DNA from: Scolanthus callimorphus
Lineage: Eukaryota; Cnidaria; Anthozoa; Actiniaria; Edwardsiidae
Direction of reading: 5' to 3'
Length of the DNA: 64,000 nt
Assembly (NCBI GenBank): GCA_033964015.1
Contig: CM066923.1
Span: 22,059,739 to 22,123,738, forward strand
The number at the start of each line of letters is the position of its first letter. Within the stretch, counting starts at the first letter, position 1. The notes beneath the pieces were generated by a model. That model did not search any database. It worked only from the letters and a program-made list of their open reading frames with translations, and was not told the DNA's origin. The translations under genes and the position numbers were made by a program. Positions 13,431-53,381 of the stretch are shown here, one piece after another.

Positions 13431-13676
13431 CTGCTCCTCCGTATATCCTTGAGAATTTTTCCCAGGACGATCGAATTTTGCTTACCCTAAAAATTTTTTT
13501 TAGGATGCAAAAAAACTTTGTTTCTGCCTTTTTATTCGTTGATAAGCGATAGGTGGGCCAAATGTCACTCGCTCGCTCATAACTCAAGTGTTAGTATGAT
13601 AGAAACAAGTTAATATCTCTAGAACGGAACATGATGACCAAACTTTGGGTATAGTTCTCTTCGAGGCATGGGAGGA

Positions 13677-14148
13677 CGTCATCGCAACTAGAACCTTGGA
13701 TAAAAGGTATCCAAGATTTCACCAAGGCACTCGCTGCCTTTGAGTCATGATGCCTTGAAAATTGTTGTTCTTTTAAAAAAGCATTTGGGCAGGCCGTCAT
13801 CGCAACTAGAACCTTGGATAAAAGGTATCCAAGATTTCACCAAGGCACTCGCTGCCTTTGATTCATGATGCCTTGAAAATTGTTGTTTTTAAAAAAGCAT
13901 TTGGGCAGGCCGTCATCGCAACTAGAACCTTGGATAAAAGGTATCCAAGATTTCACCAAGGCACTCGCTGCCTTTGATTCATGATGCCTTGAAAATTGTT
14001 CTACTTTTTAAAAAGCATTTGGGCAGGCCGTCATCGCAACTAGAACCTTGGATAAAAGGTATCCAAGATTTCACCAAGGCACTCACTGCCTTTGATTCAT
14101 GATGCCTTGAAAATTATTCTACTTTTTAAAAAGCATTTGGGCAGGCCC
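13677..14148. repeat. Four-copy minisatellite, about 118-bp unit
   Basis: CGTCATCGCAACTAGAACC recurs at about 13,677, 13,796, 13,914 and 14,032. Each unit contains the self-complementary stretch CCTTGGATAAAAGGTATCCAAG and ends in GCATTTGGGCAGGC. The copies are more than 95 percent alike by eye, so the amplification is recent. Confidence 0.9.
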
Positions 14149-16236: not shown

Positions 16237-19200
16237 CTCAGTGAAGTTCATGCTTCTGTTTGCAAGAAGATACTTTGTGAACTATAAGACAAACGAAAGA
16301 ATATCCTTAATGTGTCAAGTTTGTTAAGGAACGGAGGAAAAAGGAGCACAATTTCAAAGTTGAAACAATGTCTGGCTGTTTATTACATGACAGTACAAAA
16401 CCTTTTGACATTTGACCTCTTGCAAAGTTCTTGAAGCGGGGGAGGGGGGGCAGAATAATTTTTTTTTGGGGGGGGGGGGGGCATCACTTCATTTTGGGGC
16501 GAGCGAAAGGGGAATCTCTCAGAATAGAATATCATCTATTAAAGGCAACTCGCGCAACGAAGACACTACCTTCGCACCGTTCCCAAGAACAAGTGTATCT
16601 TGGCGAGGAAAAACAAATCTACCAATAATAATAATTTCGTCATTTTGGCGCGCAATTGCGTGTATGAATAATAAAACCTACAGGATTTGTTTTCTTACAT
16701 AAAAAAACGAAATGTTCATCTACCCTTTCTCTAAGGTGATGAAATGCGTTTATCAAAATTCGCGCAACGAAAGAAAAATGCGATCCCACTTATTTGTAAA
16801 TTGTCTTCTACTAGGTCAAATAGGGGGCGGGGGGGGGGGGGGGTCACGAAAGTGTTTAACTGCTCTGAGGGGGGGATCATGTTAATCATGCATTGTACTT
16901 ATAGAGGAGGATCACTGCATTTTGACCCTGTACTACCCAAAATCCTCCGACCCCCCCCCCCCCCCCCCCCCCCCCCCTCAGGCGATAAACAATGACTGGT
17001 CCCTTAGATCCTAATCAACTTATATGCTTTTTTTTTCAAATAAAGATCCATACATACCGCGCAAACAAACACGCCACATTCCCACCCACTCTTTTGTCGG
17101 GGTATCTCCTGATTCATTAATCGAAAAAAAAAAACGAATGGTCAGTTGAGTACAAACACAATGTTTAACCTAGATCCTGAAAATAATGTAAATATCGGCG
17201 AGTAGTCCCTATGCGTTATCCACAATGCTTTCAAATGTTATATTCACCTATAGATAAATACAGCAAAATATGGAGAACGTCTCGAAAATATATCAGCGCG
17301 CTGAATCGCTTGATTAATTATACTAACATATAACTTATATTATCAATGACCATCGTTCCATGTCGTCCCCTTCCAGCATTTGCGTTATTTTGCAAGGGGC
17401 TGTGGATCTCGCTCTCTACGAGGCCTTTCCATGGGAAAAGTTAAAAAATAGAGAGTTGCAGACGATTAAAAAATTTGCTTCGGATGCTAGTTCCTATTAC
17501 CTTACTATTTCATGAAGCTATTTTGTTTATTCATGCACAAGCCTGATTGCATTATAGGTTAACACCCAGCCGCAATTACCTTCTGTGGTTCTGGCTTACA
17601 AAACGCCCAGTTTTCTTTGAGAATCTCTGCCCTCTTCTTCTCTTGGGCCAATTTGAGTATCCAAATCCTAGTAAATAAAAGTTAGTAGTCCATTTTTCCA
17701 TAAAGAGAGTGATGATACACGTACTCTTGACTAACATACTAAAAATCCTCCAAAAGCTGACAAGAACGATTAAATTGACGTGTGTGAAAACGTGTGTGAT
17801 CAAGGTTTTTATGACAATTAAAAAAATATCCAAGCAGTCTGTCTGTCTAAGGCGATAGAGAGGGACAAAAATACAGAAAGTAACGGGGCAGGATCGAGAA
17901 GTCGTCCATAAGCAACATCTATAAATAAATAAATAAGGCCCTAAGGGTGTACCTTACATGGGTTCAAATACACCCCTAGAAGTCGCCAAAAATCAGATTA
18001 GAATGTACTTACCAAATATCATTCAAGCACTCTGTTCCGCTTTCCTGACCATAAAATGCGTCAAAGTGGTAGATTGTTTGCCTGGGAATATCAACAACCT
18101 ATTTAAAATAAAACAGAAAGTCAAGTGGTTAAAAAGTTTTTTTTTAAACATTTCGATTTAAGAATTAGTCGCCGAAGCCGACGTGATTATCGGCGCATAG
18201 TCACCGAGACGTGTTTTAGTAGTATAATTGCCCAAAAATAAGAATGAGCAACACTACAGCTTCCCTCTTCACGCTTAAGTTTTACTGCTTCATGAATGCC
18301 CATCTGGAACTTTCTTTCCTGAATATTTTGAACATGGATAATTTCTTATATTCATTTCCCTTCCTTTTTTCCTCAATAATATTCATTACTCCTACATTTT
18401 TCGGTGATTTTGTGTTTATTTTTTTTCAAATTCTTAATCAAAAGGATTTTAGACCATAATTTATTATTCCTGGTCTTTTTCCTTTACTCAGCATATTTAC
18501 CGGCTTCCACCCGTATAGAAAGACGAAGTTTCAAGACTTCAAAACAATTCAAGACAATTTATTTTTCTTGCTTGTAATAATTGTCAATGTATCTATGGCT
18601 AACTTTTATAACCTTTTCATTTCAAAGTTTTGAAACTTGTATCAAATGCTGAAAGTCAAGATATGATATTAACATATTGAAATTCCTCTTATATTTAAAT
18701 TGTGCCTAACTGCACTTACAGCAAGACTCCAGTGTACTGATGCATCATGGTGCACCGGTATTATGATAAGCTCCTTGGTGAAGATGTCGTCAACCTGTGA
18801 GGAGGAAGGTTTTAAAAGAATGGCTACCACACCTGCCTTTCCTCATATTTATGGTTCATTCCTTTTACTACCCTGACATCTCTAGTGTTCCTTCCGTTTT
18901 GGTCAGAAACTTATAAGTGTGATTTGCGGAGGCGAAGCTTTGTCTATGATGCTGCGCAACAATTAACAGGAATAATCCAAAATATAACGTGACGTTATTA
19001 TACTACTCCGTTTTTGAGGGCAATTTAGGGGCGGACCATCTGAACTTTGAAGGGGGGGGGGGGGGTAGAAGATTTCAACAAAAAAATTCCTACAGCCTCT
19101 CATAAGGTAAAAAAATATCATACACAACAAGCACCAAAGAAAAATATATATTTCATAGGACACTGGCCCGAAAAAAAATTCATACAGGAAGTCAAAGACC

Positions 19201-21134
19201 CCTCCCTAGGTTTGTCAGTTAACCCAGTGTAGACCATCTATCCTATTGAATAACAATAGATGTAGTTGTTAGTCCTCAGTCAAGACTAACAACTACACTT
19301 ATGTATATAACATTATAATATTTTCTATTTGTGGCTTATACAATGGGAAAGTAAATCTAAACATACATCTCTATTTTAAATAAAACCTCTTCCGATACAA
19401 TATATGTAGATTCACTGCTAGCTGATGGCCGGCAACTTCACTATTACTTCAATTTAACACAGTAGACTGTAAACGTTTCTTGCAGTTCCACAAAACACCA
19501 TCTTCTAGATAAAACGAAACTGAGGAGCACTAAAATTGAATCACATATTTTACCTCTGTGTAATTTAAGTAAGTTCCGATTTGGAAAAAAAAATAAAAAA
19601 ATCGTGCCAAGGCTAAGTATGTGAAAACAATTTCCTGCAAAGCTTTTTATAGTTGGAAAAAAAATTATTTGACTATTTGGCTAACGCAGAATTTTTTGTT
19701 TTGACTGATCAGATCTTCCAACCCCCCCCCCCCCCCCCCCCCCCTCCCCCTCTCTCTCCTCCTCAAAGTTCAAATGGTCCGCCCCTTATGGTTTGGGGCC
19801 TACACACCTTCTTTGTCCATCTTGAGACACCATCATACCCCTTTCGTCGTAGGTTGTCGTAAAAGAACACATCCATCCTCTGACATGTGCCCTATCACAA
19901 CACCAAAATTCAACAATTAAATTATGAGTTCGTAGTCTAATTGTTTTAGTAGAACCCCTCTAGCATACTACCTTGCTTGAGGACTATATTTAAAAAAGGA
20001 ATTTGGAATTAACTTTTTTTTTCTTATTGATGTTTGCCAGTCCAAACTTCTATAGGAAAACAATTGCTAGTAAACTTTCCAATGAATCCTACAGGACAAA
20101 GATTTTTTGTGCGAAAAACGGCAGATATTACTTTATCATTTACTTTAGTTATCAAGCAAATTAAAAGTCAGATCAGAGAGGCCAGAGCTTTTAAAAATAT
20201 TTGCTTGATAATAAAAAGCATTTACGTTTGAGCATGGCTCACTAGTAAATTAAATTGATGAATAAATTTGACTGCAAACCCACTAAAACGGTGGCTTCGT
20301 TGACAACAAGAAAACAATTCTAAACGGGCGGATTAAGAGGGGGGCCAAGGAGGCCGCGGCCCCCGCATTCTCGGGAAATTTTCCCATACGTTTCCTTTTG
20401 TGCTGGAGGAAATTTGTTAATTTTCGTCCCATGTTTTCACTATCCGCCCCCCCCCCCCCCCCCCTTTCTGGAATTCCTGGATCTGCCCCTTCTAAGAACA
20501 TCGCAGCATACGATCAAGCCACAATCATTACCTTTTGTGCCACCAACAGGGAAATGTAGGCATTTATAAGCTGCAATTGGCAAGTAAGTCATTGTTAGTG
20601 TATTAACTAAGTTGGCAATGTTAAACTTACAGCTGTTTCAGGTAACACGCGACCCAGCGCGTTCAAAACAAGTTTTGGCAGTTGGGTTTTTCTGTAAAGT
20701 CAATCAAACCACGTAGCAAATCAGGTCCTTGCTCAGTTTCGCCTAGTGCAGTGAATTGGCTTCTGTCGCGACATGTATCGCAAGGGAAGCCAAACAAATG
20801 CACTGGGCAAGGATCTGATTGGCTCACACGGATTGCGTTGATGGACAACGCAAGAAAAACCCAACTGCCAAACTCCACGAATCTGAAAACGTTTTTTATT
20901 AACAATTCCTTACAACTGTTCGAGTCACAAAATATGAGCTTGGGTCCCCTGTGGTTTCTTATGTTCTTTGTTTCCGTTGGTTTCAGAGCTTTTTGAGAAT
21001 AAGAAGGAAAAATATATTACCTCGTCATTCAAGTGCTCTGTTCCTCGCAATTTCTTCATGTCCTTTCCCTTTAACTCAAACTTCTGAACTCTCGCCACAA
21101 TTTCATTGTCGCTCTTGGAAAAAGCTTCTTCAAC
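16237..21134 (-). CDS. ULP1/SENP-type (C48) protease module, eight exons
   Basis: Exons, high to low: 21134-21021, 20570-20532, 19891-19808, 18794-18720, 18098-18013, 17667-17580, 17108-17058, 16281-16237. All have GT-AG borders with matching phases (0,0,0,0,2,0,0) and no internal stop. Motifs in order are GTEHLNDE/LINAYISLL (the ULP1 'LND..I..Y' start), FFYDNLRRKGYDGVSRWTKK, VDDIFTKELIIIPVH, HWSLA with the catalytic His, IYHFDAF with the catalytic Asp, PRQKSG with the oxyanion Gln, and ECGVFVCA with the catalytic Cys, then FTKYLLANRSMNF. ULP1 enzymes process SUMO or NEDD8 or strip them from targets. All catalytic residues are present, so the domain could be active. The Asp usual before the Cys is Glu. 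The C-terminal exon is missing. It lies downstream of, and in phase with, the linker and USP exons. Confidence 0.85.
16412..17000. mobile_element. G/C-tract repeat inserted in a ULP1 intron
   Basis: G-runs of 7-14 near 16,442-16,483 and 16,828-16,842 and a run of about 27 C's (16,951-16,977) ending in GCGATAAACAATGACTGG define a repeat related to 10,727. It sits in the intron between the CGVFVCA exon and the next one. Confidence 0.55.
19022..19235. mobile_element. MITE with G-tract arm in a ULP1 intron
   Basis: GGGGCGGACCATCTGAACTT followed by a G-run and poly-A motifs (AAAAAATTCCTACAGCCTC) matches the ends of the 15,055 element. The right arm is degraded (AAGACCCCTCCCTAGG). Confidence 0.6.
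19560..19795. mobile_element. MITE, opposite orientation, same family
   Basis: A run of about 22 C's then CTCAAAGTTCAAATGGTCCG at the right end is the reverse complement of the 19,022 left end. Internal AATTTCCTGCAAAGC and AAAAAAATCGTGCCAAGG motifs match the family. It ends just before the exon at 19,808. Confidence 0.65.
20316..20493. mobile_element. Poly-C repeat family member
   Basis: TCTCGGGAAATTTTCCCATA, GTTTTCACTATCCGCC, a C-run and GGAATTCCTGGATCTGCC form a module repeated at 57,180-57,378, so this is a dispersed repeat. It lies in a ULP1 intron. Confidence 0.7.
20672..20876. mobile_element. MITE with TTTGGCAGTTGGG inverted ends
   Basis: TTTTGGCAGTTGGGTTTTTC at the left is inverted at the right (GAAAAACCCAACTGCCAAA). 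About 200 bp, with no ORF of its own. It is inserted in the ULP1 intron between exons 21,021 and 20,570. Confidence 0.8.
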
Positions 21135-21505
21135 CTGTTGTAAAAGATTTTGAAAGCACAGTGGAATCAGAGATTATTGTTTTAACCCTTTATTTTATAC
21201 GTGTGTGCACTCTACAAAACCTCAATGTTTCCCCATGATCGAATGATCGTACACGTTTACCGTGGCGCGGGCGCCATGCATATCTGGTCCTCCAACCAGG
21301 GCGATTACTTCTCCACTTCAGTATAGAGCAAAGTAATTACGCCAATTTTGGTCACTAAAACATTCCTTTGTTTCGCGCTATAATTAAAATACCAAACACC
21401 AAAGCAACCCTTTTTGAATTAGGTTTTTGAATTAGGAGAATGCGCGCGATCGCAAAGAAAAAAATCATACCAAATGGTTGGCCCTCTAAGGCTTAAACTA
21501 CTCAC

Positions 21506-22216
21506 CCTGGTCTTTTCTTTCTTAGTCAGTTGTCTCGTTGGCTTTTTGGGTTAAAAGAAATAAAATAACTTCATTAACCTACAGAGCTTAACTGGTTAAT
21601 TATAAGCAATAGTCTAAGAGCCCACGATGCAGTAAAAGAGATCTTTTTCCTCCCGGAAGATCGTTGATGACGTCCCGTTCCGGCGCCGTTGAAACTGGCA
21701 CAAAATTAGTAACAAGCACTATGTTTCATTATATGCTGGAATATAACATGGCTTCACAATTCTTCTTCAGCTAAACGAAAAAAATATATGTGGCACTGAC
21801 TTAGGATTTGTTTGGAAGGTGGAAGTGGATAATGTAGCCCGTAATATAGGAGTTAAAGTCAAAGCAAGTCTATCAGTTTCCAGCAAGAAATTCAAATTTC
21901 CTACTTCTCAAGCAAATGTAGCCAGGAGAGCTAAACTAGTTACAGATAAAGCCACAGGCTCGAAAGTAACTTCAAAAGAAGGTATAGCGTCACCAACGCA
22001 GTTACTGTGAACTCTCTTAGAAACGATTGACCATTTTTGGTCACCCCCAAAACGCTATCACTTTATTTATTAATGAAATGAATAAAATAAAATAATGGTC
22101 CGTTCCATCTCAGCCCGCGCATTTCTGGAGCATTTAATTGCAGAACTTACTGAAGCGATGTCCGCTGTAGAGCAGCATGGATGATCGGCAAATGCCCTCG
22201 TTGGTAGTAGCTCTAC
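21506..22216 (-). CDS. Two linker exons between the USP and ULP1 modules
   Basis: Exon 22216-22151 (acceptor TTTCACCAG, donor TTCA/GTAAGT, 22 codons, VELLPTRAFADHPCC...) and exon 21541-21506 (12 codons, PTRQLTKKEKTR, donor AGG/GTGAGT) are both phase 0 at each end and both on the minus strand. They connect the USP exon ending at 22,650 with the ULP1 exon starting at 21,134 without breaking the frame. They carry no recognisable domain. The second has a weak acceptor. Their support comes from splice signals and phase, not homology. Confidence 0.55.
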
Positions 22217-22649
22217 CTGGTGAAACGATATACATCATGCTTTGGTCATTATTGTGGCATTATGACTGTAAATAAATTCGTTAAAAGACACGCTATATAC
22301 AGGCATTCCATACCTCGATTTCTTCTCTTTCATAGAAGAGTAGATAACAGTTTCTCTGAAAGCATTTTCGCGCGTTAGAAAATATATGGTATTAACGACC
22401 ACAACAACAACAATCATAACTATTTTAATTAATTAACAGTTAACAATTACTCTCCTTATTGATGCAACCAGTGGTCACACAAACAGAAAAGGCATTTTTT
22501 TTAAAGTGGCACTAGCTGTGCGAAATTCGAATGCTTCCTTTCTTTGAGAAATTCATTCCAAATAATTCCCGTTAGCAGTAAAAGTTATATATAGCACCAC
22601 AAAATACATTTATTGTAACTTTTTGCGACTGAATTTGTCCTATGTTTAC

Positions 22650-25600
22650 CTGTACGTCAGGGGATAAGCAGAAATTATTGTTACTGGTCACCACAGATCT
22701 ATCATCGTATCCAACGTGTGTCATTGATGGGGCATCACTTGGCAGGCAAATTGACGTATCTAAAATTTAAGGAAAGATAAATAACAGATCAATTATGATT
22801 TCCCACGGGGGTTGTGCCGCCGAGGTCTCCAAAACCTGACCCTGTCAGAGACAAAAATACCTAAGAGAATATCCCCGGAAACTGAACTGATTGCTCGCAG
22901 CTATTGTATTCCAGCTACAGTTACTCGATAAACTATTATTTATTGTTCTTACTAATAAAAGATCGTTACCAAATCTGTAGATTAATGAAGTTTTCTTGTG
23001 CAAATGTCGGATTGAATCCGGACATCATAAGCCCCCCCCCCCCCCCCCCCCCCATAAGGATTGGAAACATTTGATTGAATGGAGTTCCTCCCTTCATTTG
23101 TATACTTCTTGGTTTTTAAGCATACAAGATGCTAACAGAACGGAACATAATACATACAGTGTCCCTTGCTCATCGAGGTTCCCTTGTGCACCTTACAGAA
23201 ATCAAATAATAAAATAAAGGTGTTTAGAAAGCTACGCCGTTTGTAGCAGTGGCTTTAGATAGATAGATCTATTTAACCACGGTAGATTACTTTATCATAA
23301 GCTGGTTTACAAGTAAGCCGTGCGCTATCTATAATAATAATAAAATATCTATAAACTTTGATGGCTTTGATATGATTTGATGGCTGGTACGGGAAAAAGA
23401 AAAAAAGGGACAAAATAACACAACAAACGAAAGCGTAGTCCGCCACGTTCGGGCGTGCGCGTTACTAGCCTCGACTGAAGACCCATTACTGAGTATACAC
23501 ATCGCCAGACAAAGGCTAGCAGCAGTACGCAGCTGAAAGTCGCTGTCCACCTGTTTTCCTTTCGTGACTTAAACATATTTGTCATAAAAACAACAACAAC
23601 AACAACACTGGTGTTCGGTTTAGTGCATTTTTTTGTATTACATGGTGCAGGACTATAGGCACGTTTCTCTTCTATTGTCAGGGTGCAAAGAGAGAGCTTT
23701 CGGAATATAAGATACATGCAATTAAGGACGTTTTCTTATTTCTTTAAGGCTGGCTTTCATATAGTCGAATCGGTCGTCCGAAAACCAGGCTTTACTTACC
23801 ACAGTTCCGCGTAATAGGTAGTTATTACTAGAACCACCATATGTTAAATTACCCAGACAAATTCGCCTGCAAGAAACACATCACGCACCATTTCATCTAA
23901 TAATGACAAGAACAAAAACAGCAGCAACAACAACAACAATAAAATAATGATCATAACAGCGGTATTTTAGCGCGTTTACACGTGCAGGCGAAGGTAAAAT
24001 AAAGGTTCATAAAAAGTAAACGCCGTCTTCAAACTCTAAACATTTCACAGTCCATTGAAGAGAAGTAGGCGTGTTTCTGTTGGAAAAGATTAATCTGCAA
24101 CGAAGTTCCAATTCAAACAATTTCTTATGCGAGGGACAAAGCCGCCATGTTGAATTCTTCCACAGAAAACTAAGAACTGAGTTCGCATTGCTGAAAACAC
24201 CTTAGACATTTCACTGACATGTCACCATGCGTAATTTTCGCGCCAAAACCAAGGAGACACCACAGAGAGAGCAGTGCATAGTCAGGGCCAAACAACGGCG
24301 AAAATGCGCATGGCGCTTTGTTTCCAAACAATACGGTATTTCCTAGCCATTGCCCAACACCACCAACAACCCGTGAATTTAAAAAGCATAGATAAATAAT
24401 ATAAACGTCTGCAAGAGACAATGACGTCCGTTTCGTTCACGTCACAGAGTGACGGGTCCTTTTCTGGTATTAATAATATAATTCGTTATGCAGATAATTT
24501 TTACTCTTTTTCAAACTATTTATGTGCTTACCTTTGTGGAACAAGACATTCTGAACTTTTTGTACAAGAGCCATCTAGCTCCTGGCGGAACCTCTTCGCC
24601 ACAACAAGAAGCGCACTTCCAAGGCTTACGATTCTGGATTTCATTGTAGTCTTTGTTGTTCGAGTGCATTTATCGCAGTATCTGCAGAGTACAATAAAAG
24701 CCGATTACATTGAATATTACATTAGTTCAGGGCTACTTCAAATCTAAAGATTATATATTCTAATATCCAAGTTGTTCGTTCAAGAAAAATTAATCATTTT
24801 GTCAAGAAAATAAATTAAAAGAACTCAACTCGGTCCCGATTTTCGGTTTGTGTCACTGCGGGTCAAGCAAAACGGTATATAGCATCTAAAAAAAAGCTTT
24901 GGTGTATGATATCATACTTTGCGTCGGCGTGTTCCAAGGTCACGTCTTGCATGTTTGCGGCAATGCACTCTTCTGTGGTAGAGCCAGGGGCTATGACGTC
25001 AATCATGAACTCCCCTACTGCAGTCAAGTTAAAGGAGGACTGCAATTTAACCATAATAACTCGGTTAGTAAAAGATTAGCTGTTTTTAAATTCCAACAGA
25101 ATACAGCCTTCATATTGCACGCAAATTTTGCACGCAAATTTTTTACAGTTCAGCAAGTTAGTAGAAGAGAAAGGAGTAGGGCCTTACTCTTAAAAGGCCC
25201 AATAAGGGCTATAGGCCATTTGTCCTTGGCGTGTGAGAAATATAGTAATTTCATTTTGGTGTCAAGCTTTATAGATGGTAAGAGCTAACTGGGGACACTA
25301 AACAAACCATAAGGAAAGAACAAAACGAAGTGAAAAAAAAAAAATAGCGAGGAGACAAACCAATTGGCTATTTACAAAGAATAGTGGGCCCAGCATGGGA
25401 CTCGGACCCTGCGGATTACAAAGCTGGCGCTCGATCAACTGAAAACTATTCTGTCTTCCCTGAACAAAGGACAATACTGGAGCCATATGTAGCTTCTAGA
25501 GCATGGTGCCCATGGTCGCACAATAAAAAACACCATTCGCATATATTGTAATCTAATTGATATGAAAGAAATCTTATTCACTTTTATGTAGCTCAATTAG

Positions 25601-27779
25601 TAATTACTCACAAGCAAGAACGAAACCTGAATATAGCAAAAATATTATCATACATTTGGTCTCTGCTTCGTTAGGCTTGCGCCTACAGCATTTCGATTAT
25701 TTAAAAAAAGAAAGGGTTCTGTACCTCATCTCCGCACTCTAAGCATTGCCATTGATGTAGGATGCGACTGTTCATAATTTTTTCCACAGGCTAGAGGGAA
25801 ACAATGTTACATGATGTACTTAAATATGTACTTAGCAACAACAACAGCAGAGGGAACATTACTAATGACAACAAAGTACTTATTTCCTCGCTAAAATATA
25901 CATTGAAAATGAGTTAAAAGAAGCGTGCATCATTAATTTTTTTAGAAGACGATGAAACAATTCGATGGCGAATGATTTCATATAATATTTGTGTTTATAA
26001 ATCGCATAATCATATTTTTATCACTGTGATGTTAAAACTATTTACCTTTAAACCAGACTGTTTGTCGCAGTTCCACACCAAAGACATAAATTCATGGGCG
26101 TCCATTTGCATAGACATACAGTTTGGCATGTATCTCTCCATTTTAGCCTGTAATCAAAAATGAAGGATCTGCGAACTCTTCTTTACAAATAGTAACCAGA
26201 GTGCGAAAGACTAGTGAACTCAAAAGTTCTGTATTCTTCCACCTTTTCGAGAAATGTTCTACTTTTTCCACATTTTCAAAGTCAGTACACGGAGAGGGAA
26301 GGGAATTTACAACAGTGAGGGATCCACATTAAAGAGAATCCAATCAAAGATCCAGGGGGTGTAAATCTTAGAACAATCGACGGCCAGTATGTGTCAGCCA
26401 TTCGTTACTCCGGCTTTCAAAATTCTACGAAAATTGGAAGGTTATTTTTAACCCTGAAACCAAGCTCTAGTGATATTACGTCTAGGAAATAAATTATTTA
26501 TAAAATTAAATATTTTGATAAGGTTAACCACACTAAAATATTCATACCAGAAATGGCGTAGGATCTACAGGAGCAATTTCTTTGGAGTGAAGTTTGGCGA
26601 CCAGTTTTGCTAGCTCCGCGAGAATGGGATCAGTCTTTGCATCTAAAGAGGTAAAGAGCAGGCATTGCGTTTTTGTTTCAATGTGTTTTCTCAGCTCTTA
26701 CATTTTTTTTTTCATGTATTAAGAGGTTGCTACGGAGACGATGTTTAAAGTGGTCAATGTTTTTCTTTTATGAATAGGCTAGGGCACAAGGCCGTAGCAG
26801 GGGGAGGGGCTAGGGGGCGCGAGCTTCTCTCCAATAATTGTGACAATATATATCTTTGTTTTTCTCTCTTGGACATCTTGAAGAGCACAAATTCGAGAAA
26901 TGGCGACTGAGTGGATGTAAAGAAGTTTTATACTTTCAATTATGCATAAAAAGGCTGCTCGTAGCTCAATAAATCGTTCTATAGGACTTGTCTAATTTGG
27001 CAAATTCAGCGCAAAAGACAGGCCAAAACGCCTCAACTCAGTATCAAAGTCTACTTAAACGTAAATCGGTAGCTTGGTAGTTAGTAGCCAAATGTTAGTT
27101 ATCGTTTCACTAGTGAACATTGTTAGGCCTTTTCACGTAGGGCCCCCAAATATTTTTGACCTTGCTACGGGCCTGATATGGTACGATAAGGCTAACATCC
27201 AGAGTGCTCAAACTTCATCAAGCCCATCCCCTTGTCCAGTTTTCCACGAACCGCCATTGCACGCGAGGCTTGCTTCGTTAAATACCGTCACGATACTAAT
27301 ATGGTTATTCATTTCTTTGTGCCACCGTGCGATAACCACTTAACTATTTTCAGTGGTAGTGACCATCTCGAAAGCCATGCGCTACTATGGTCACTACGTA
27401 CTTTGCTTTTGTCTTTACATTGTAAATCTTTATTATAGTTGTTTTCTTTTTGTAGTGTATAACCTTGTTTGTAATGTAATATATATGTGCTAATAAACTG
27501 AACTGAACTGAACTGAACTGTACCATGGTCCTCCAGATAAAGATAACTTGTCTGACCGACAAGGGGCTTTCCTATTTTAACCAAACGGTTCTTCAATGCT
27601 GTATATACCTTTGATGCATTTGACGAGCTCTTCTATCTCACACATGCATTGGACAACAGAAGCAAACCAGCAGGAATTTCCGATGTTCGATATGCCTCTC
27701 CTGGTCTCCAAACGTTTGGCGCCTCTCTGAGCTTGCATCAGCACTGAATTAATTGTTTGCTGGCCTGCATTCTTGGTAC
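22650..27779 (-). CDS. Ubiquitin-specific protease (USP, C19) module, nine exons
   Basis: Exons, high to low: 27779-27609, 26642-26548, 26147-26046, 25790-25725, 25039-24918, 24681-24532, 23866-23800, 23191-23137, 22759-22650. Every junction has GT-AG borders and phases that agree (1,0,0,0,2,2,0,1,0), with no stop. In order: Cys box GISNIGNSCWFASVVQ (nucleophile C); D..LAELAKLVAKLHSKEIAP; QQDAHEF equivalent MQMDAHEFMSLVW; zinc finger halves CLECGDE and KYCDKC; LKRF equivalent LLVVAKRF; YLLRGTV; His box HKGTSMSKGHCMYYV (usual GHY is GHC); and GYDDRSV with the third catalytic residue. USPs remove ubiquitin from proteins, including histones. The domain is full length and looks catalytically intact. 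The first exon joins in phase to the chromodomain exon upstream. Confidence 0.88.
22996..23110. mobile_element. Poly-C-tract repeat in a USP intron
   Basis: A run of about 20 C's (23,034-23,053) followed by ATAAGGATTGGAAACATTTG marks a repeat end of the G/C-tract type. Its limits are not resolved. It lies just downstream of the His-box exon. Confidence 0.4.
24165..24460 (-). mobile_element. Unnamed interspersed repeat, copy 1
   Basis: Read on the minus strand, it matches the plus-strand block at 35,565-36,070: CCCGTCACTCTGTGAC, GACGTCATTGTCTCTTGCAG, GGTGTTGGGCAATGGC and CACTGACATGTCACCATG occur in the same order in both. It lies in a USP intron. No enzyme is encoded. Confidence 0.75.
25379..25451 (-). 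tRNA. Degenerate tRNA-like sequence (Thr-UGU-like)
   Basis: A 73-nt minus-strand segment has a perfect 7-bp acceptor pairing (GAATAGT with ACTATTC), a box A (CAGTTGATCGAGCG), a TTTGTAA anticodon-loop-like motif and a box B (GGTCCGAGTCCC). The anticodon stem does not pair, and the T arm is imperfect. It is probably a tRNA pseudogene or SINE head in a USP intron, not a working tRNA. Confidence 0.35.
27210..27525 (+). mobile_element. 3' end of a non-LTR retrotransposon (probable)
   Basis: AT-rich sequence ending in GTGCTAATAAACTGAACTG with four tandem ACTGA units looks like a LINE 3' tail with its short tandem repeat (about 27,490-27,520). No reverse transcriptase is visible, so it is a 5'-truncated copy or tail only. 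It lies in the USP intron after the Cys-box exon. Confidence 0.45.
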
Positions 27780-28241
27780 CTGCCATAACAACGAAATTGG
27801 TTTGATTGGCGCACACGGGTTATTCCAAAGCATACGTACAAGGCACTTTAAATACATCAGTTATGAGGAAGGACACTAATTTGGAAAATGGTAAAAATAT
27901 AACACTTACTCTAGTTAACATTTTTACTGCGAAAAAAATGGATAAGAGATTACTTCTGCCTTTTAAAATCAAAAATAAATCTACTTTGATAGTTACTTAG
28001 CAAAGCGATTTGTTCTTTCCTTAACTTTTAAGAGGAATCGTTAAATCCAAACAGATTCTCAAATTAAGGAGCATTGCTGGCTTTTCTTCTCTTCCACTGT
28101 CGCGTCCGAGTAGTTCGCCAGCATATTCGGAACTTTTATACGTTGTATTTAGACCTGAGTACTTTCTCTTTGGCATTCACATGATGACGTAAGTAAAAAT
28201 AACGTTCTGCTGTATTTGGGCGTGAATGATGGTCAACCTAC

Positions 28242-31200
28242 CTCTTAACTTTTTCTTGTTCCTCTTGTCGCAGTCTGCTTTCTTCTTTTTGGGAGGCGGG
28301 TTTGCGTCAAGGAACTCCGTGGCAAAAGGGTTTGTTTCTTCGGGCTTCGATGTTATGTGCTTTCTCTTGCGCCCAAATCGCGAGCGTGAGTTAAAAGACA
28401 CTTGCTGATTGAATGCAGAGGACGGAAGCCACACATCATCTGCTGGACCATAGCCTTTGAATCGAACCAAATACTCGTACGTTTGCGTGGACTTAATCAG
28501 TCGTTGGTCGATGATATCGTCCACCTCGAACATACCGGGCTCTATGATGTCGACAGGCTTCGATTGTGTAGCACACACTTCATCATCCTTCAAGAGTTTG
28601 TATAACCTGCTGGAGGAATCTCTGGTCAAGTGCAGTTTTCCATCCTTTGATTCCAGTTGAACTTCACAAATAAAGTTGGCAACTGACATCCAAGAGGAGA
28701 CCCGCACCTCATCGCCAGTGACAAAAACGCCTTCTTCCACTTTGATGTATGGCTGGCAGCGAAGGATAGCGTTCTTGGCATCGGAACTGGTGCTTATCAA
28801 ATGCTCCCCGGTGTCTTTTCGCTGGATGATTAATACTCGCCCAACAGCAACCTCTTTTCTAGCCTTACACTTCCAAAAAGCGATATCTCTAAACTGGATA
28901 ACATCATGATCGTGATTGGGTGGAGACATGCCTTTTATGTACTTGGAGGCCCAGTGCCGCTTGCTACGTTCCCTAGAAATATATTCTCGAGGAAGTAGCA
29001 AGGATATGGCTCTTTGATGTGAATGGGCGAGAGACTCCCATTCTCGTTTACTCGGCTGACGAACCACTTCTTGTCTGTAACGTCTTCATATTCATCTCCG
29101 TTGATGACGTCGTCGCCAGTTTTCTCGGTTACGTCTTCTGTTTCTGGATCCCATTCAAGTTCTTCATCGGATTTTAAACTGGCGACGACGTCGTCGGCAA
29201 CCGATTCGCCGTCCTTACCTATCATGTATTTCAACCAACAGTCTTGCGTTGTGGGAAGGTCCTCCACACCATTCACTGTACAAATGTCGTCCGGGAGAGA
29301 AGATTCGTACGGCACTTGCCAAACATCATTCTCCATCATCATTTTAACAAGTTTCTCCGGCCACAGTTTCCTGCACCAGTCTTGAGCTGCCTTAACGCCC
29401 CTCATGTGAGCGTCTCTTTGCTTGTTACAGAATTCGTCATAGGTCACGGGGTAGGAGTACTCTTTCGCTTGCCTTGTCGCTGTAAATTTCCAAACAGATT
29501 TCTTTCTTGTTGATGAAGAGGCAACTTTTCCGCCTGCCAGACTAATACTATGCATGGCACTTTGGTTGAACTGGACATTCGTTAATCGATGAACGATATC
29601 ACCAAATGTTGGCTGCGCGTCTAATGTTTGGATGTGAGTCGTCTTGCCTTGGAGTTCTGCAATTATGCGTTCTGTTGTCTTCGTTCCAGAGAAGTGAGGG
29701 GACTTTGTTTGTGTTTGGTTCGGTTTGCAGTGCAGGAACAACATCAGATGGTGTAAAGTAGCAGCAGCAAACTGAACCTCTGCAGTTCGATAGCAACCAT
29801 AGGTGAGGAAGTTCCCTCGTTTCTTTGGATCGCTGGCTGCTCCCGGCTTTGCGTGGAGTCGAAGTCCCTTCTGTAGCTCGACGGCTTTCCTCCATAGACG
29901 CAAAATCATGATCCCTGTTGAGACAGATTCTTGGACATCTTCTGGGCTTCCGAAGTTGTTATCTTGGAAGGGCTCTGTCAGGAAGTATACGGCGCGGATA
30001 TACAAACTTGTACCATGCGAACCAGGGACAAGACGGTCAAGGAGGTCGGCGATTTCTTGAGTGAATATCGCGTCGCATGCATCCTGATTTTGGTCTAAGT
30101 AGTGCACTAACATCAGATCAGATTCTTTGAGACTGCAGGGAATTGACTGTTCCTTGCACGCAGCCATTAGCGCCTTAAGATGCTGTACAGTTGCTAGTGT
30201 CACCCCATCGCTTCCATTCCACATGATTAGGTCACGGGTTGAATACTTTAGATTCTTGACAAAAAGCCTACGCTCATGAAGATAATCAAGATATGCTATT
30301 GACGGAAACTGCCAGAAGTATGGCGCTGCAAGCTTTTCTCCTTCAATACCAAGCGCCAAGTACTTGATACCATTTGCAACCTTCTCTTTTGTTGGAGTCA
30401 TCAGCGCAACCGCAGCAGACAGTTGATGCCCAGCCGAGTCAGTTGAGAATCCAACTAGCTTCAGGGGGAGCTCTCTTATCATTCCATCTTTGTGGCACCT
30501 GGACATGGCTATCAGCTCTCGCCAGAGAGTTAACTGGTGCTTAGCTCTAAACCCCTTGGATGGTAGAGGCCACACACAGTGTATCAGGGGTGCTTTCTGA
30601 GAGGTGAGGGAACAAAAGTTGTGGATGTTTGTCCCCTTTGCTAGCTTCTCATTCGCAACGAGGCTTTCTATAACTCTCTTCAGAGCTGTAAAATCGTCCG
30701 GATCACCTTTACTTGCGTCCCGTCTTGGCACTGGAAGCGAGTTCCTGTTCCATTTTTGAACATCTTCGCTCCAGGACGATCCTATCAGCTCTATTCGTCC
30801 TTCGCTTGTCAGGCGTGGCTCTAAAAATCGTAAGGTCCTAGCTTCATCGCTGCATTCCGTCACTACGTCGTCGCCATATATTTTGATGGCCTCCTCGATC
30901 ACATTCCAATTGAAGCCCGGTCCAAGCGCGCCTCTCGAGGATTTGACGTGCGTAGTAACGGTAGTAGCACAAGGCAGGCCGAAGATATCTTTGAGTGTGG
31001 TATAGCTTGCCTTGCCCAACTTATTCTTGAATACTCCACTAATCTCCTTGATTATTTCAATGAACCGATGGTTGTTTTTACTCTTCAGTTTGCCGACCAG
31101 GTTTCGCAGGACTTCCACTTGAAGTGGGTTGGTACTAGAAACTTTCTGTTGAAAGAGCAACATCAAATCGGTAACAAGCTTTTCCTCGTCCATAGATTCA

Positions 31201-33610
31201 CAAGAGTTGTAGAGCACCTCCACCCAAGACCTTCTGTTCATAATGAGGCGGCACAACCGAGCTTTATCCCTTTCTGCTCTGATTCTCTCCATTCGTTCCT
31301 TCACCAATGCACTTGAGCACTCTTTCTTCTTCATGTAGGTGTGACGGAAGCCTTTGAGACGGTATCTTTCACCTGTTACATGCGCATAGGAGGCCTTTTT
31401 CCTCTTTGCAATCAGGTTCTCAAGGTAGTGCTTCTGCTGGTTGCAGTTGGCACAAGTGAAAGGCGTTTCGCCAACAGGTAAGGCTTTGCCAAGGCACGGA
31501 GGGAGCAAGCTCTTTATTCCACCCTCAAGGGAAATCTTTTTTTCGTTGAGCACGATTGTCACTCCAGAGTGTGGAACAAACACGGACCGTATTTTCCCAC
31601 TAGCTTCTTCCTTCAGTGTCTTTGCGTCCTTAGGGTGTACAGTCGCCCAGTCTTGGTACCGATTACACTTCTTGTGTTCCATGTTCTTGCAGAGTCTGGA
31701 TCCGCTGGCAATTTTCTGCCTAAATAGTGTCTTTGGCTGCATTCTGCGAATGGCAACGTCGTCTTTATAGCTGGCTACAATCTCGGGATCCCATAGATGA
31801 AAGCAAGGGACAGGTGTTATCATCCCCGATGGCTTGAAAAAATCTCCAATACTAGGTTGCGGAACCGCATCTTTCGTCGGTCGTTGGACTTCTGCACACG
31901 CAGCAGTTTTACCATTCTTTCCTTGCATCCAAACACTAGCAAGCTGATGGGCTTTGGAGATACTGTGCTCATACGTCTGCCTCGTCCCTTCGAAGGACAG
32001 TCTCGCTTTCCCTTTTCTTATAAGATCTTCCGTTGCTGTTCGCTTTTTCAGAAAAGGACGGGGTAAGTTGTTTTCGATGGACCATGACTGAAATGGTATG
32101 CAAATCTCACATCTGAAGTTGCCGTTTTTATATGGGCTTGAGAACTGAGGAAATGGCCTACCAGCTATCGTATTAACAACTTTTGCTGCTACTTTGCCAA
32201 CAGTGATAGGAGGAAAGGCCAAGGAAAGGAACAGCCTGACACTGTTTTCTTTTCGTTTGTTGTGCTCCTTAGCCCATCTTCAGTCCCATCAGAATATGAT
32301 TCCGGAAAGACCTGATCGAGTGCGTCTGCAAATGACACTCCAGTGGGAACAGCGCCTTCAGGAAGACTCTTATGAGTTAGCTGGTAGGGCTTTCTCCAGT
32401 TGTCTTTGTAAAAGAAAATGTTTGGACGAAAGATGTCAGTTTCTTTTTCTTCTTTTCTAAATGTGGGACTTCCTTCTGCCTTTCTCTTTAATGACCTGTT
32501 GCTGGTGTGGCTTCCGGTTTCCTTTTTTGCTCGATCAATTCCGTGGGTCATTATTTTTCCTTTGTCTTCATTTTTCCTACTTTCAGTTTTTTCATGATTA
32601 GACTGTTCGTTTTCCTCTTTCCCCTTCATCCTGTCTTGCTCATCTTCTTCCGGTTTCCAATCTCCCGCCCCTGTCTTCTCTGAGCTACCGTCCTCCGTTT
32701 TTGTGTGATCACTTACATTACTTTGCATTGTTTCTTCTTGATTGAACTGTTCGTTTTCCTCTTTAAACGTCATCCCATTTTGCACATCTTCTTCCCGTTT
32801 CCAGTCTCCTGCCTTTGTCTTCTCTGAGCTATCTGCGGCCTCCCGTTGTGTTTGATCACTTTCATTACTTAATTGCATCGTTTCTTCTTGATCGAACTGT
32901 TCGTTTTCCTCTTTGAACGTCATCCCATTTTGCACATCTTCTTCCCGCTTCCAATCTCCTGCCTTTGTCTTCTCTGAGCTATCTGCGGCCTCCCGTTGTG
33001 CTTGATCACTTTCATTACTTAATTGCATCGTTTCTTCTTGATCGAACTGTTCGTTTTCCTCTATGAACGTCATTCCGTTTTGCACATCTTCTTCCCGCTT
33101 CCAATCTCCTGCCTTTGTCTTCTCTGAGCTATCTTCCGCCTCCCGTTGTGTTTGATCACTTTCATTACTTAATTGCATCGTTTCTTCTTGATCGAACTGT
33201 TCGTTTTCCTCTTTGAACGTCATTCCGTTTTGCACATCTTCTTCCCGCTTCCAATCTTCTGCCTTTGTCTTCTCTGAGCTATCTTCCGTCTCCCGTTGTG
33301 TTTGATCACTTTCATTACTTAATTGCATCGTTTCTTCTTGATTGAACTGTTCGTTTTCCTTCACGCGCAAGCCAACGAAGTGCGACTTCCTTCTTCCAAC
33401 TGTTTTCACCTTCTGGAAGGCAGGGGTTATCTTTAGAATTCTGCCAAGCAAGGTGAAGAAGGCTGATCGGTCTGTTGCTTCCAGGGGGAATCTCTTCACT
33501 GCCGCTTCCCATATTGTGTTTTTGGAAGTAAGATCGCTCTCAGAATTTGTTATGATATAGTGATCATTTAAGAATTGTTTTATAAACAGCTCTTGATGTT
33601 CAGGATCAAC
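28242..33610 (-). CDS. Transposase-like chromodomain protein (large exon of the chimeric gene)
   Basis: It opens after an acceptor (TTGTCCGCAG, 33,620-33,611). In order: a winged-helix-like start (FLNDHYIITNSESDL...LLGRILKITP...GRRKSHFVGLRVK, reminiscent of RFX-type folds); acidic 50-residue repeats; then, in the ORF whose first codon is 32,222, C38/C41 with H86/H92 (zinc-finger-like), PIP box at 122-129, CxxC near residue 270, and a transposase-like core with GFSTDS (D595) and WNGSDG (D672). Next comes a chromodomain (about 28,530-28,400: FEVDDIID, EYLVRFKGYG, VWLPSSAF; cage F, F, Y), then a basic tail, and a donor AGAG/GTAGGT at 28,242 joining in phase 1 to the USP. Similarity to P-element/THAP9-type transposases is my tentative reading of the segment after D672. 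Two frame breaks are listed separately. Chromodomains bind methylated histone tails. Confidence 0.7.
28970..28985 (-). other. Frame break 2 in the large exon
   Basis: The transposase-like frame (...PYPCYFLENIF) runs out here, and the chromodomain frame (SRERSKRHWASKY...) takes over one base out of register. An additional T in the TTT run (plus-strand AAA at 28,977-28,979) would make the frame continuous. This is either an assembly indel or a real disabling deletion. Confidence 0.7.
31836..31859 (-). other. PCNA-interacting (PIP-box) motif
   Basis: QPSIGDFF is a textbook PIP box (Q-x-x-I-x-x-F-F), at residues 122-129 of the transposase-like frame, flanked by proline and lysine. Such peptides dock on the replication clamp PCNA. 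Some transposases are known to use PCNA contacts. The motif is short, so chance is possible. Confidence 0.55.
32271..32280 (-). other. Frame break 1 in the large exon
   Basis: The acidic-repeat frame ends ...YSDGTEDG, and the next frame continues AKEHNKRKENSVRLFLSLAF after a one-base shift. One extra G in the GGG run (plus-strand CCC at 32,273-32,275) restores a single frame. Without it, the first ORF stops about 20 codons later and the second has no ATG at its start. Confidence 0.7.
32590..33365 (-). repeat. Acidic 150-bp in-frame coding repeat
   Basis: Five to six tandem 150-bp units encode a 50-residue repeat with the pattern ENEQFDQEETMQLSNESDQ, SSEKTKAGDWKREED and VQNGMTF. The starts are spaced exactly 150 bp apart (about 32,748, 32,898, 33,048, 33,198, 33,348), with a more diverged unit near 32,600. 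The period is a multiple of three and the frame is unbroken, so this is a coding repeat. It would form an acidic, probably disordered linker. Confidence 0.9.
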
Positions 33611-35016
33611 CTGCGGACAATTGGATTAATAAAGAATAATAATAAGAGTCTAAAAAATATTTTGTGCCATGCTTCTATCTGTTTTACGTTGATCTCACGA
33701 AGTCCGCATACATAAGACTTTTCTGAGAAATGACGTATTTGAATGAAAATAAAAGTATATGATTTATACTTATTATAAATCTTGTAGTTTTATTTTCATT
33801 CGAATAAGGTAGCTTAGGTGAACTTGGGGAAAGTAATTTATGTGAAATCCGATTCCCCATTCGAATTACCATTCGTTAAAGTGTTTGTAAGTGTTCCAGC
33901 TGTAGCAATGTTACTAATATGTCATTTTCTATACCACAGAATCCAGAATTCTTATATAATATATGATTTGTTTATCAAATGAAAAAGTGTCTAATGTCTT
34001 AGAGATCTAGTCTAAAGCCTTACATGTGATGAATTCAGAAACAATTGTCTCAAAAGTTGTGTATTTTTTCATTTTTTATACTTTGCCTTTCTGTGGAGGA
34101 TAGGTATTTAGGAAACTTGCTAGATAAGAAGTTATATAAAATCGGAATTAATTTGAAGATCACACGCCTTTTGCAGCTAACAATCCTGAAAATATGGATG
34201 AATATGAGCGAAAACTTCTTTTCCTGGAGTTCTTGTAGATGTGACTTAAGACTAAAAATGTTCGCGATATTTTTCCAAATAATCAATTTGGCAATCTATA
34301 TATTTCAATGAAAACTACAATTAATTCAAAAGCTTTTACCACTGTATGCATTGCTACACGACCTTCAACATTCACTGTTGCGATTGGCAATTTTATGCAA
34401 GAAAGTTTAAGTATCAATTTTCTTGAACAGAGAGTTAAACATTCTAGGCAAGGGTAGCCAATGGATTGCTTAAAACCATTTTGGTTGATTTTGCAATCAA
34501 TAGTTGATTTTGCAATCAATATCGATCCAATAAAGGAGCCGAATCCAGCCTTTTTGGTTTGATTGACCATTGAATTTTGAGGTCGCGTAGCAATGCATAC
34601 AGTGGTAAAACGAGGCAACAACTACTGGCACATGCAATATAATTATGGCATAGTTATGGGGGTCGCACCTGTCCCTTTTTTATACTGCAATGCAGGTCAC
34701 GAACGTGCGTTTGACATTTATCTTTGTATAGATTATCTTTTCAAGGAATTGAATTGTATGTTGACTGAAATAGCATCAAAACAATTAAAAATTATTATCT
34801 AATGCATACCTTTAGAAGCATCGTTGTTGCAAATTAAATGAATGTCAAGGGTTTTCCTATAAAAGTCAACAACAATAATTGAAGTTATATACTGTCACCA
34901 AAACATGACCCGACATTGACTTTTTTCGTTAGGTCAGGTGGTTCTGCGAACCGAAATATATTATGCATTTTTCAGGCCGAAAAGTGATTACTCTATGTAT
35001 GGGTGTCACCTCCTAC
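33611..35016. other. Candidate first intron, containing an inverted-repeat element
   Basis: No supported exon was seen between the candidate first exon and the large exon. An inverted-repeat element lies at 34,334-34,610. The rest is AT-rich, with chance frames on both strands. Confidence 0.4.
34334..34610. mobile_element. Inverted-repeat element, 277 bp
   Basis: TTTTACCACTGTATGCATTG (continuing to CTACACGACCTTCAA) is inverted at the right end, with one or two mismatches over 40 bp. The interior includes a tandem pair of TTGATTTTGCAATCAAT. The open minus-strand frame across it (112 codons) is a by-product of the repeat. Confidence 0.75.
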
Positions 35017-35050
35017 CTTACTCATGCCTTGCAATCCATTGGTCGACACC
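35017..35050 (-). CDS. Candidate first coding exon of the chimeric gene
   Basis: On the minus strand, a strong acceptor (CCCGTTCTTTTTAG) and donor (AGTAAG/GTAGGA) bound 34 bases that contain ATGAGTAAG (ATG at 35,025-35,023). Splicing to 33,610 would give MSK followed by VDPEHQELFIKQF in phase. If the exon is non-initiating, its frame reads VSTNGLQGMSK. Supported only by splice signals and phase. Confidence 0.35.
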
Positions 35051-35564
35051 CTAAAAAGAACGGGTTGGTGTGTAGCCATGGAATCCGAGCCCTCCCTCTT
35101 CTGCCTCTTTGAAAGAAGAACTACAGTAAACATGGGGAATAGAGCCAAACAATCTCTCACCCCCAAGCTAAAAAATCCTCAGCGTTCATTATTAGCCAAG
35201 TTGGAATACCCATATTGAGTGTACATTTAGTAAGGTAAGCAATTGCCTATATTTCCTACGGTTGGTCTACAGGTATACTGGACCTGGTTACCATTTATGA
35301 CGTAAATAATACGCACTGTTGTCAGCACTGCCAGTAAACAGCTGAATATTATCAAAAAATTATTTTCTATGAAACAATTATTATTATTTCAGACGGGTAA
35401 AACGTGTGACTTGATTAAGTGCTAAGCATTTGTGCTTGAATGGACCGATTAATTCAGAATTTGTCTCAATATAATATAACACAAAGATGCATCTTCTTGT
35501 GTAAACACAGACTCGTGACTCGGAATATCATTATTATTAGACGTTTATAAGTGTGATACCAGAA

Positions 35565-36070
35565 ACAAACCCGTCACTCTGTGACAAGAACGAAAGAAAA
35601 CAGACGTCATTGTCTCTTGCAGACGTTTATACTATCTATACATTTAGATTTATGGGTTGTTGATGGTGTTGGGCAATTGCTAGAAAATACCTTCCCCATG
35701 CCGAAATATCAGCACTGTTTGGAAACAAGGCGTCATGCTCATTTTGCCGTTGTTTGGCCCTGGCTATGCACTGGTCTCCCTGTGGCATCTCCTTGGTTAT
35801 TGCTCACTGGCGCGAATCAGTCGTCGTATGTGCTTGTTCAACAAAGCACCAAATATGCCACATTGAATAACTTATTCAACCTCATCAAAATCAAATCGAT
35901 AGAGTTCACAACATAGAATCTAGCATTGTGGCTAAATGCAAACAACACTGCAGTTTTGATTTATTTTCTATGGCAACGGCGAGTGGGGAACTCGAGTGGG
36001 GAAAGAAAACTACAAAAGGCTAGGCAAAAATGTGCGTCTCACATGTTCCTTCACTGACATGTCACCATGT
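35565..36070 (+). mobile_element. Unnamed interspersed repeat, copy 2
   Basis: It shares ordered blocks with the minus strand of 24,165-24,460 (CCCGTCACTCTGTGAC at the start, ACATGTCACCATG near the end). The right part is longer here. A 111-codon open frame occurs, but the frame is not conserved between the copies, so I do not call a gene. Confidence 0.7.
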
Positions 36071-51061: not shown

Positions 51062-51235
51062 TTGAAACTCAGGCTATATTACACTGAGTCATGGGTCGTG
51101 ATTTAGGGAGTGGATTATTTTGTTTTCCCTGGTGTTTGCCCAAAACCGGAAAACGCGTCACGTGTTAGCGACGCAACACTAAGAAAGTCCTGTATCAAAG
51201 TGCGGCACGTTTGCAGGGGACTTTTGATGGAGCTG

Positions 51236-52865: not shown

Positions 52866-53063
52866 CGCTGACTGGAACTTAGTCTGGCACTTCTTACTCT
52901 CGTGAAAAACACGAGCGTGGTCCACACTGAAAGAACACACAATTACTTCATCCCTAAACCGTGACTGGTATATCCCTATGTTGCCTCCTAAGTGCTAAGA
53001 TGTCAAGGAACAAAAATTCAAATAATTAACATAATTTGACTTCCGCCCGGCGCTGTTGCAAAA

Positions 53064-53381
53064 TGTCATCCTCCAGAAGGAGGGATCGAGAGGGACTAGT
53101 TCCGAAGGTAACTTCGGAAATCGTCGGAAAACAACATGGCGGCCTACGGTCCTCTCGCTACTTTACACTATTTTGCTGATTTATATGGAGTGTGTTGGCT
53201 AAGAATCAAGGAGAACCAACTGAGATATTGCATTTATGTCCAATCGTTTATGTGTATAATTAAGATTTGCCAATTTGAGCCAGATTCATCAGCAGAAGGA
53301 TTTTACATGTATAAAGATAAAGCGACATCCGTCAAAAGGAGGTTTGGTAGAAAATGGCATCTTCCACAAGGAGGTTCTCAC
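53064..53381 (+). mobile_element. Left terminal inverted repeat of a 6.2-kb element
   Basis: It matches 58,947-59,275 in inverse orientation over about 320 bp with a few differences. It starts TGTCATCCTCCAGAAGGAGG and contains further copies of the CATCnTnCnnAAGGAGG word (CATCCGTCAAAAGGAGG, CATCTTCCACAAGGAGG). It encodes an open frame of about 80 codons (MAAYGPLATLHYFADLYG...) that is conserved in both arms but simply reflects the shared sequence. Confidence 0.9.

Follow-up and report, generated by a model that had tools for sequence, protein, structure and literature searches.

Several kinds of transposon encode a ULP1 or OTU protease, for a purpose that is not settled. Ginger1 elements, which are DNA transposons of animals including Hydra, have a transposase that ends in an Ulp1 or OTU protease (PMC2836005); the discussion of the same paper also mentions a Trichomonas protein that combines a transposase domain with a USP-type (Peptidase C19) domain. 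Amongst the USPs themselves, USPL1 is presented as a family member that prefers SUMO (PMC8983731). Here we analysed a stretch of 64,000 nucleotides of the Scolanthus callimorphus genome (C13:22,059,739-22,123,738, hereafter the window), in which a gene encoding both a USP and a ULP1 protease lies downstream of a transposase-like exon with a chromodomain, to which it may be spliced. All gene features treated are on the minus strand of the window, and the genome searched comprised 597 Mb in 302 contigs (designated C1, C4 and so on).

The USP-ULP1 gene is complete, with 22 exons, 1,725 coding bases including the stop and a predicted product of 574 residues that begins at the ATG at 27,786. The initial annotation had described a stop-free chain of 19 exons leading from the USP through a linker to the ULP1 domain. 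This chain is indeed open, phase-matched and on one strand, and homology-based joining also first gave 19 exons, but the frame was then broken between 24,532 and 22,759. Two short exons (23,866-23,800 and 23,191-23,158) repair the frame and supply the USP His box, and a final exon (15,685-15,623), just beyond the range of 16,237-35,050 in which the chain had been described, finishes the ULP1 domain and holds the stop codon. The gene is laid out as follows.

27,786-27,609, minus strand: USP exon 1, with the in-frame ATG at 27,786 and the Cys box (C39)
26,642-23,800, minus strand: USP exons 2-7 with zinc-ribbon Cys pairs (exons 2-5 at 26,642-26,548, 26,147-26,046, 25,790-25,725 and 25,039-24,918; exons 6-7 at 24,681-24,532 and 23,866-23,800)
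23,191-23,158, minus strand: USP exon 8, His box (H271)
22,759-22,314, minus strand: USP exons 9-10 (22,759-22,650 and 22,355-22,314), D290 and the end of the UCH domain
22,216-21,506, minus strand: linker exons 11-12 (22,216-22,151 and 21,541-21,506)
21,134-15,623, minus strand: ULP1 exons 13-22 with H460, D477, Q527, C533 and the stop, matching PF02902 and SENP1 (exons 13-17 at 21,134-21,021, 20,570-20,532, 19,983-19,972, 19,891-19,808 and 18,794-18,720; exons 18-22 at 18,098-18,013, 17,667-17,580, 17,108-17,058, 16,281-16,237 and 15,685-15,623)

A Pfam scan of the joined protease, run on a 554-residue version from which the last exon was excluded, placed UCH at residues 30-316 (E 2.4e-27, 96.6 bits against a cut-off of 23.9) and Peptidase_C48 (PF02902) at residues 389-552 (E 1.7e-25, 90.6 bits against a cut-off of 20.7). 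The catalytic positions are intact in both the USP (C39, H271 and D290) and the ULP1 domain (H460, D477, Q527 and C533), with roles that we presume from the respective families. With UCH above its cut-off and the Cys, His and Asp present, the first domain is a Peptidase C19 (USP); with C48 above its cut-off and the His, Asp, Gln and Cys present, the second is a Peptidase C48 (ULP1/SENP), and it matches SENP1 with E 1.6e-31. Codon preference, trained on the upstream core described below, was 0.16 in the true frame against -0.14 and -0.12 in the other frames, and the G+C content was 45% in the exons against 37% in the introns. A second stretch resembling a ULP1 Cys box was seen on the minus strand at 20,538-20,503, in another frame and overlapping the end of exon 14; its tblastn match to P0019, a database protein considered below, had an E of 4.8 and it is possibly due to chance.

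The sequence also supports the encoding of USP and ULP1 by one gene. Exons 10-13 are linked through phase 0 junctions and contain no stop, and exon 12 aligns to the N-terminal portion of the catalytic domain of SENP1. The ULP1 frame has a stop three codons ahead of exon 12, and when the intron preceding this exon was scanned for in-frame ATG exons with a donor of positive score only a one-codon candidate emerged; the ULP1 domain therefore depends on an exon further upstream. No joined USP and SENP-type protease was found among the 7,999 best word-sharing candidates, the two matches obtained being USP only. This search and two others, with the transposase-like core P0002 (best 8,000 word-sharing candidates scored) and with the full chimera (all 6,112 candidates scored), detect solely sequences that share exact words, such that absence from them is not proof. 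No relative was found in the viral contigs searched.

Upstream of the protease gene lies an exon of about 5.4 kb that is spread over three frames and, together with the proposed junction, comprises the following features.

33,625-32,189, minus strand: P0003, open frame, N-terminal part of the transposase-like protein
32,279-28,935, minus strand: P0002, transposase-like core of 1,114 residues, with 14 database relatives that are 37-49% identical
29,014-28,242, minus strand: P0001, C-terminal chromodomain part up to the proposed donor, its frame staying open until the stop at 28,177
28,241-27,780, minus strand: proposed intron of 462 nucleotides from the chromodomain exon to the USP, or an intergenic or promoter region if there are two genes

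P0003 has an acceptor-like border at 33,611 (judged by eye) and contains five in-frame repeats of 150 bp, which form a tandem array of 5.1 copies at 32,602-33,360. In the core, alignment with the 14 relatives revealed invariant acidic residues that include D478, D614, D665 and E870; given these kept residues a cutting function is possible, with any catalytic assignment being a guess. P0002 matched no Pfam model at E<=1. By this measure, which is limited to Pfam, the core is neither a Ginger (Gypsy-type) integrase nor a KDZ (Kyakuja-Dileera-Zisupton) transposase, a model of which Pfam presumably contains. The predicted core structure was of low confidence (predicted local distance difference test, pLDDT, 53.7), and when compared to the PDB it gave 307 matches at E<=10, not one of which reached E<=0.001; RAG1 accounted for many of the 50 matches listed, the best at 0.15, and these were not counted as evidence. 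The chromodomain of P0001 matches PF00385 with E 6.8e-6 and 26.4 bits, above the cut-off of 25.1. Judged by eye, each of the three cage positions of HP1-like chromodomains is occupied here by an aromatic residue.

The initial annotation had joined this exon to the USP through a strong donor at 28,242 and an acceptor at 27,780, and both sites stood up to scoring. With a rough weight matrix built from the gene's own 21 introns, the donor scored 10.0 bits, higher than any of the gene's 21 donors (3.5-9.8), and the acceptor 10.5 bits, equal to the gene's best (-5.9 to 10.5). Over both strands of the window these scores were reached by 8 of the 6,838 other GT and 14 of the 7,260 other AG dinucleotides, respectively. 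The two sites match in phase (phase 1) and would define an intron of 462 nucleotides, close to the gene's median of 471. Allowing for the 17 GT in the tail of the frame and the 13 AG close to the start, and for a phase match in one case out of three, we roughly estimate the probability of such a pair by chance at 2e-4. We therefore considered a model in which the large exon, with its N-terminal part, transposase-like core and chromodomain, would be joined to the 22 USP-SENP exons by splicing of 28,242 to 27,780, while the ATG at 27,786 would serve as a second start that probably also yields a 574-residue, protease-only form. The chromodomain and a DNA-binding core would hold the long protein on marked chromatin, where the USP and ULP1 domains could then strip ubiquitin and SUMO from proteins. 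The single polypeptide proposed initially is supported at the sequence level for USP and ULP1, which share one gene of 22 exons with both Pfam domains, but for the chromodomain join the case is about even, and it is with a slight lean that we favour a single chimeric gene that also has a second start.

The ordinary plan of the family to which the large exon belongs is a core followed by a chromodomain and a ULP1 domain, so that the novelty of the window lies in the USP and the SENP-type ULP1 alone. Searches with P0002 and with the full chimera returned 7 and 10 relatives, respectively, which make up the 14 distinct proteins; all align to the core (best E 1.1e-297 for the full-length query), and by this homology the window gene belongs with them. 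They include hydrozoan proteins from Clytia (P0018 and P0019). At E<=0.1, Pfam found Chromo in 7 of the 14, C48 in 5 and UCH in none. A ULP1 tail is present in eight (P0004, P0005, P0006, P0013, P0014, P0017, P0018 and P0019), of which P0006, P0017 and P0018 have no C48 match yet show a ULP1-like tail in the alignment, P0018 being labelled in UniRef as an Ulp-type protease protein; the remaining six (P0007-P0010, P0015 and P0016) stop short of the tail region. P0006 has a sub-threshold RFX match (E 0.079) at its N-terminus. In the anemone's own genome P0002 matches at least 46 places. On C1 there is an open frame of 1,821 residues with core, chromodomain and a ULP1-like tail, which has no Pfam match at 0.1 and aligns to the window ULP1 by tblastn with E 1.4e-4; on C4 the tail at the equivalent position matches C48 (3e-6), and in both copies chromodomain and ULP1 share one open frame. 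Over 870 codons the C1 and C4 genes differ with a non-synonymous rate (dN) of 0.13 and a saturated synonymous rate (dS) of 2.5, which points to strong constraint on these family genes.

The ULP1 domain of the window shares 31-32% of its residues with SENP1/2 and 18-22% with the eight family tails, which themselves split into two groups. Because of this difference it appears to be SENP1/2-like and not of the family's own type; in an 11-row ULP1 tree the window row was weakly supported (49/86), and only identities and path lengths were used. No convincing family-type ULP1 tail was found by tblastn behind the stop at 28,177. On this ground, and since its ULP1 is nearest to SENP1/2, we class the window gene as a variant and not an ordinary member of the family. 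We also asked whether the frame past the donor is homologous to the family's next conserved motif and rejected this, as 538 of 2,000 shuffles scored at least as high. Members of the family carry ULP1 at the same, C-terminal, end, which favours the fusion. Our tentative proposal, to which we give somewhat less than even weight, is that a domesticated transposase-chromodomain gene exchanged the ULP1 tail of its family for a USP-SENP tail of host origin and so may have become a chromatin-targeted remover of both ubiquitin and SUMO.

Evidence on selection came from a second copy of the locus.

23,290-50,663, no strand assigned: stretch of about 27 kb duplicated with gaps on C12 (C12:8,725,384-8,752,277), mostly 91-98% identical

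The duplication spans both the transposase-like and the USP parts and stops within the intron that separates USP exons 7 and 8. As a segmental duplication that took both parts along and was cut before exon 8, it is uninformative as a test of the fusion. The C12 core has three nonsense codons and other frame breaks, a 27-base deletion that by codon count removes the stretch with the invariant D614, and an insertion of about 1 kb in the N-terminal part. Between window and C12 the dN/dS ratio of the core was 0.32 (34.2 non-synonymous changes over 2,499.5 sites and 29.8 synonymous changes over 707.5 sites), a value that makes a dead transposon beside a gene unlikely; it was 0.27 for the chromodomain part, 0.70 for the N-terminus and 0.38 for the USP exons, the last from 12 changes only. 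The USP introns and the stretch at 28,240-27,790 diverge by 1.2-3.1%, below the core dS of 4.3%. Over 1,073 core codons there are 33 amino-acid differences, three of them the C12 stops, at which the relatives back the window in 16 cases and C12 in 6, with 11 undecided. At the conserved differing sites (one residue shared by at least 7 of the 14 relatives) the window is favoured 6 to 0, and within residues 130-1000, in a hand count that takes the stops as C12-derived, 12 to 1 with one undecided. This comparison suggests that the window copy would have been a working gene after the duplication, and the constraint seen on the large exon counts towards the fused gene.

A number of observations weigh against a working chimeric gene. 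The in-frame ATG at 27,786 lies only seven bases before the first base of the proposed exon. A strong start context has a purine at -3 and a G at +4, and this ATG has both, for which we roughly estimate a chance of about 3%; an in-frame stop stands eleven codons ahead of it, and a TATA-like TATAAAAG (10 copies over the two strands of the window) is found at 28,140, 354 bases upstream. The full-chimera search gave ten core relatives and not one chimera. Orthologues with the same order of domains, which the initial annotation had suggested looking for, were not found, the USP being absent from all 14 database relatives, eight of which reach the ULP1 tail, and from the C1 and C4 genes. As to selection, the core dN of 1.4% is just moderately under the non-coding divergence, the USP exons give no clear sign of recent constraint (7 non-synonymous against 5 synonymous changes, 3 and 2 of them derived in the window), and the asymmetry in the core has p=0.02, one-sided, given that C12 also evolved faster in the introns (26 to 15). 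The large exon described initially is real together with its donor, but in the assembly it is not a single open frame, with breaks of one base each near 32,256 and 29,016 that the C12 duplicate does not have, and the favoured model, by sequence comparison, treats these as errors. Set against the splice-site evidence, these points leave the fusion near an even call.

With regard to the breaks, no suitable GT-AG pair was seen by eye that would make a real intron of either frame change. Within the sequence compared, C1 and C41 match on either side of the gene, and C41 may be the other haplotype of C1. Across 7,184 bases of frame there are 24 substitutions between them, plus four one-base gaps, each of which lies in C41 and shortens a single-base run. 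Because the window's one-base shortfalls relative to C12 resemble these gaps, and because its core has no nonsense codon, the breaks are likely to be assembly errors, a view for which this one comparison is the basis.

The observations on the start are what would be expected of two adjacent genes on the same strand, the chromodomain gene stopping at 28,177 and the USP-ULP1 gene starting at 27,786, with the splice sites being due to chance or serving other exons. The USP-ULP1 frame is complete from ATG to stop without any upstream exon, the start signal and the TATA-like site are as described, and both the absence of USP from the core's relatives and the different type of their ULP1 fit this explanation. 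However, both the donor and the acceptor would have to fall by coincidence within the top 0.2% of sites with matching phases, and several other ATGs were noted by eye downstream of the TATA-like site and ahead of 27,786. Since start signal and acceptor overlap in bases, one can mimic the other. We consider two genes possible, if rather doubtful. It is improbable that the acceptor at 27,780 is spliced to a more distant upstream exon of the host and that the transposase-like unit, as a gene of its own, sits within the long first intron so formed: this would explain the strong acceptor and is in keeping with the C1 and C4 genes that have no USP, but it accounts for the acceptor alone and the donor at 28,242 would then be chance. 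Least probable are three separate genes with the USP-ULP1 join an artefact of prediction, for which speaks the lack of homology support for linker exon 11, but against which stand the stop-free phase 0 joins of exons 10-13 and the upstream exon that ULP1 requires.

Further copies of the USP exons were found elsewhere in the genome. Amongst the first ten genome loci (L031-L040, on C12, C1, C4, C41 and C3) only C12 has USP exons. A decayed copy on C7 (L048, C7:515,000-523,999) corresponds to window positions 23,180-27,200 and carries USP exons 2, 3 and 5-8 but neither exon 1 nor exon 4; within the 9 kb compared it had no significant match to the transposase-like parts. Window and C7 are 94.1% identical in the exons (564 positions, exon 4 being absent) and 90.9% in the introns (3,055 positions), a difference that may reflect constraint on the USP exons. 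USP-exon matches were also obtained at C254:29,933-32,845, and neither the C7 nor the C254 copy has a ULP1 of the window's type.

No convincing terminal repeats flank the transposase-like exon. A repeat of about 240 bases occurs in inverted copies at 24,247-24,470, in a USP intron, and at 35,556-35,798, upstream of the large exon, and is also present in the C7 copy; this pair, the sole long inverted one around the exon, was rejected as element ends, since one side is within the USP intron and the two read as copies of a short repeat. The C1 and C4 units sit between tandem arrays, of which the upstream ones are about 82% alike and the downstream ones have units that look related by eye (C1:34,877,215-34,879,288 and from 34,891,850 on; C4:15,756,424-15,758,339 and 15,769,638-15,774,032). 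The window has a 162-bp array at 37,092-39,474, 3.5 kb ahead of the large exon, and a 118-bp array at 13,669-14,147, 1.5 kb past the protease gene. Elsewhere in the window, inverted repeats of about 270 bases at 53,113-53,381 and 58,947-59,216, 98-100% complementary and 5.6 kb apart, are possibly a DNA transposon, and a long minisatellite with steps of about 8-9 bases at 51,100-53,000 leaves several frames open on both strands.

If the chimeric gene is real, a selected transposase-like gene with an exchanged tail would suggest that the host keeps the protease rather than transposition. If the parts are separate, what remains is a double protease that lacks targeting by the core and chromodomain; even then the USP and SENP-type protein would be one enzyme for doubly tagged substrates.

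In the literature searched, as judged by titles and the beginnings of abstracts, a chromodomain, a USP and a ULP1 together or in this order are not described. Like the family of the window gene, Ginger1 elements have a transposase with a C-terminal Ulp1, but their core is Gypsy-integrase-like whereas P0002 matches no Pfam model, and the word "Chromodomain" does not occur in the text of the Ginger1 paper (PMC2836005). The core-chromo-ULP1 family shares the core, at 37-49% identity for its database members, and differs in that no USP is seen and its ULP1 types are other than that of the window. To our knowledge USPL1 has no ULP1 domain. SENP1 and SENP2 resemble the window in their ULP1 catalytic domain (31-32% identity, catalytic residues present); they carry a long N-terminus before that domain, whereas in the window it is preceded by a USP domain. 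That USP domain in turn resembles the USP2/USP21/USP46 type and USPL1 in its Cys, His and Asp boxes and zinc-ribbon Cys pairs, but differs from them in being joined to a ULP1 domain.

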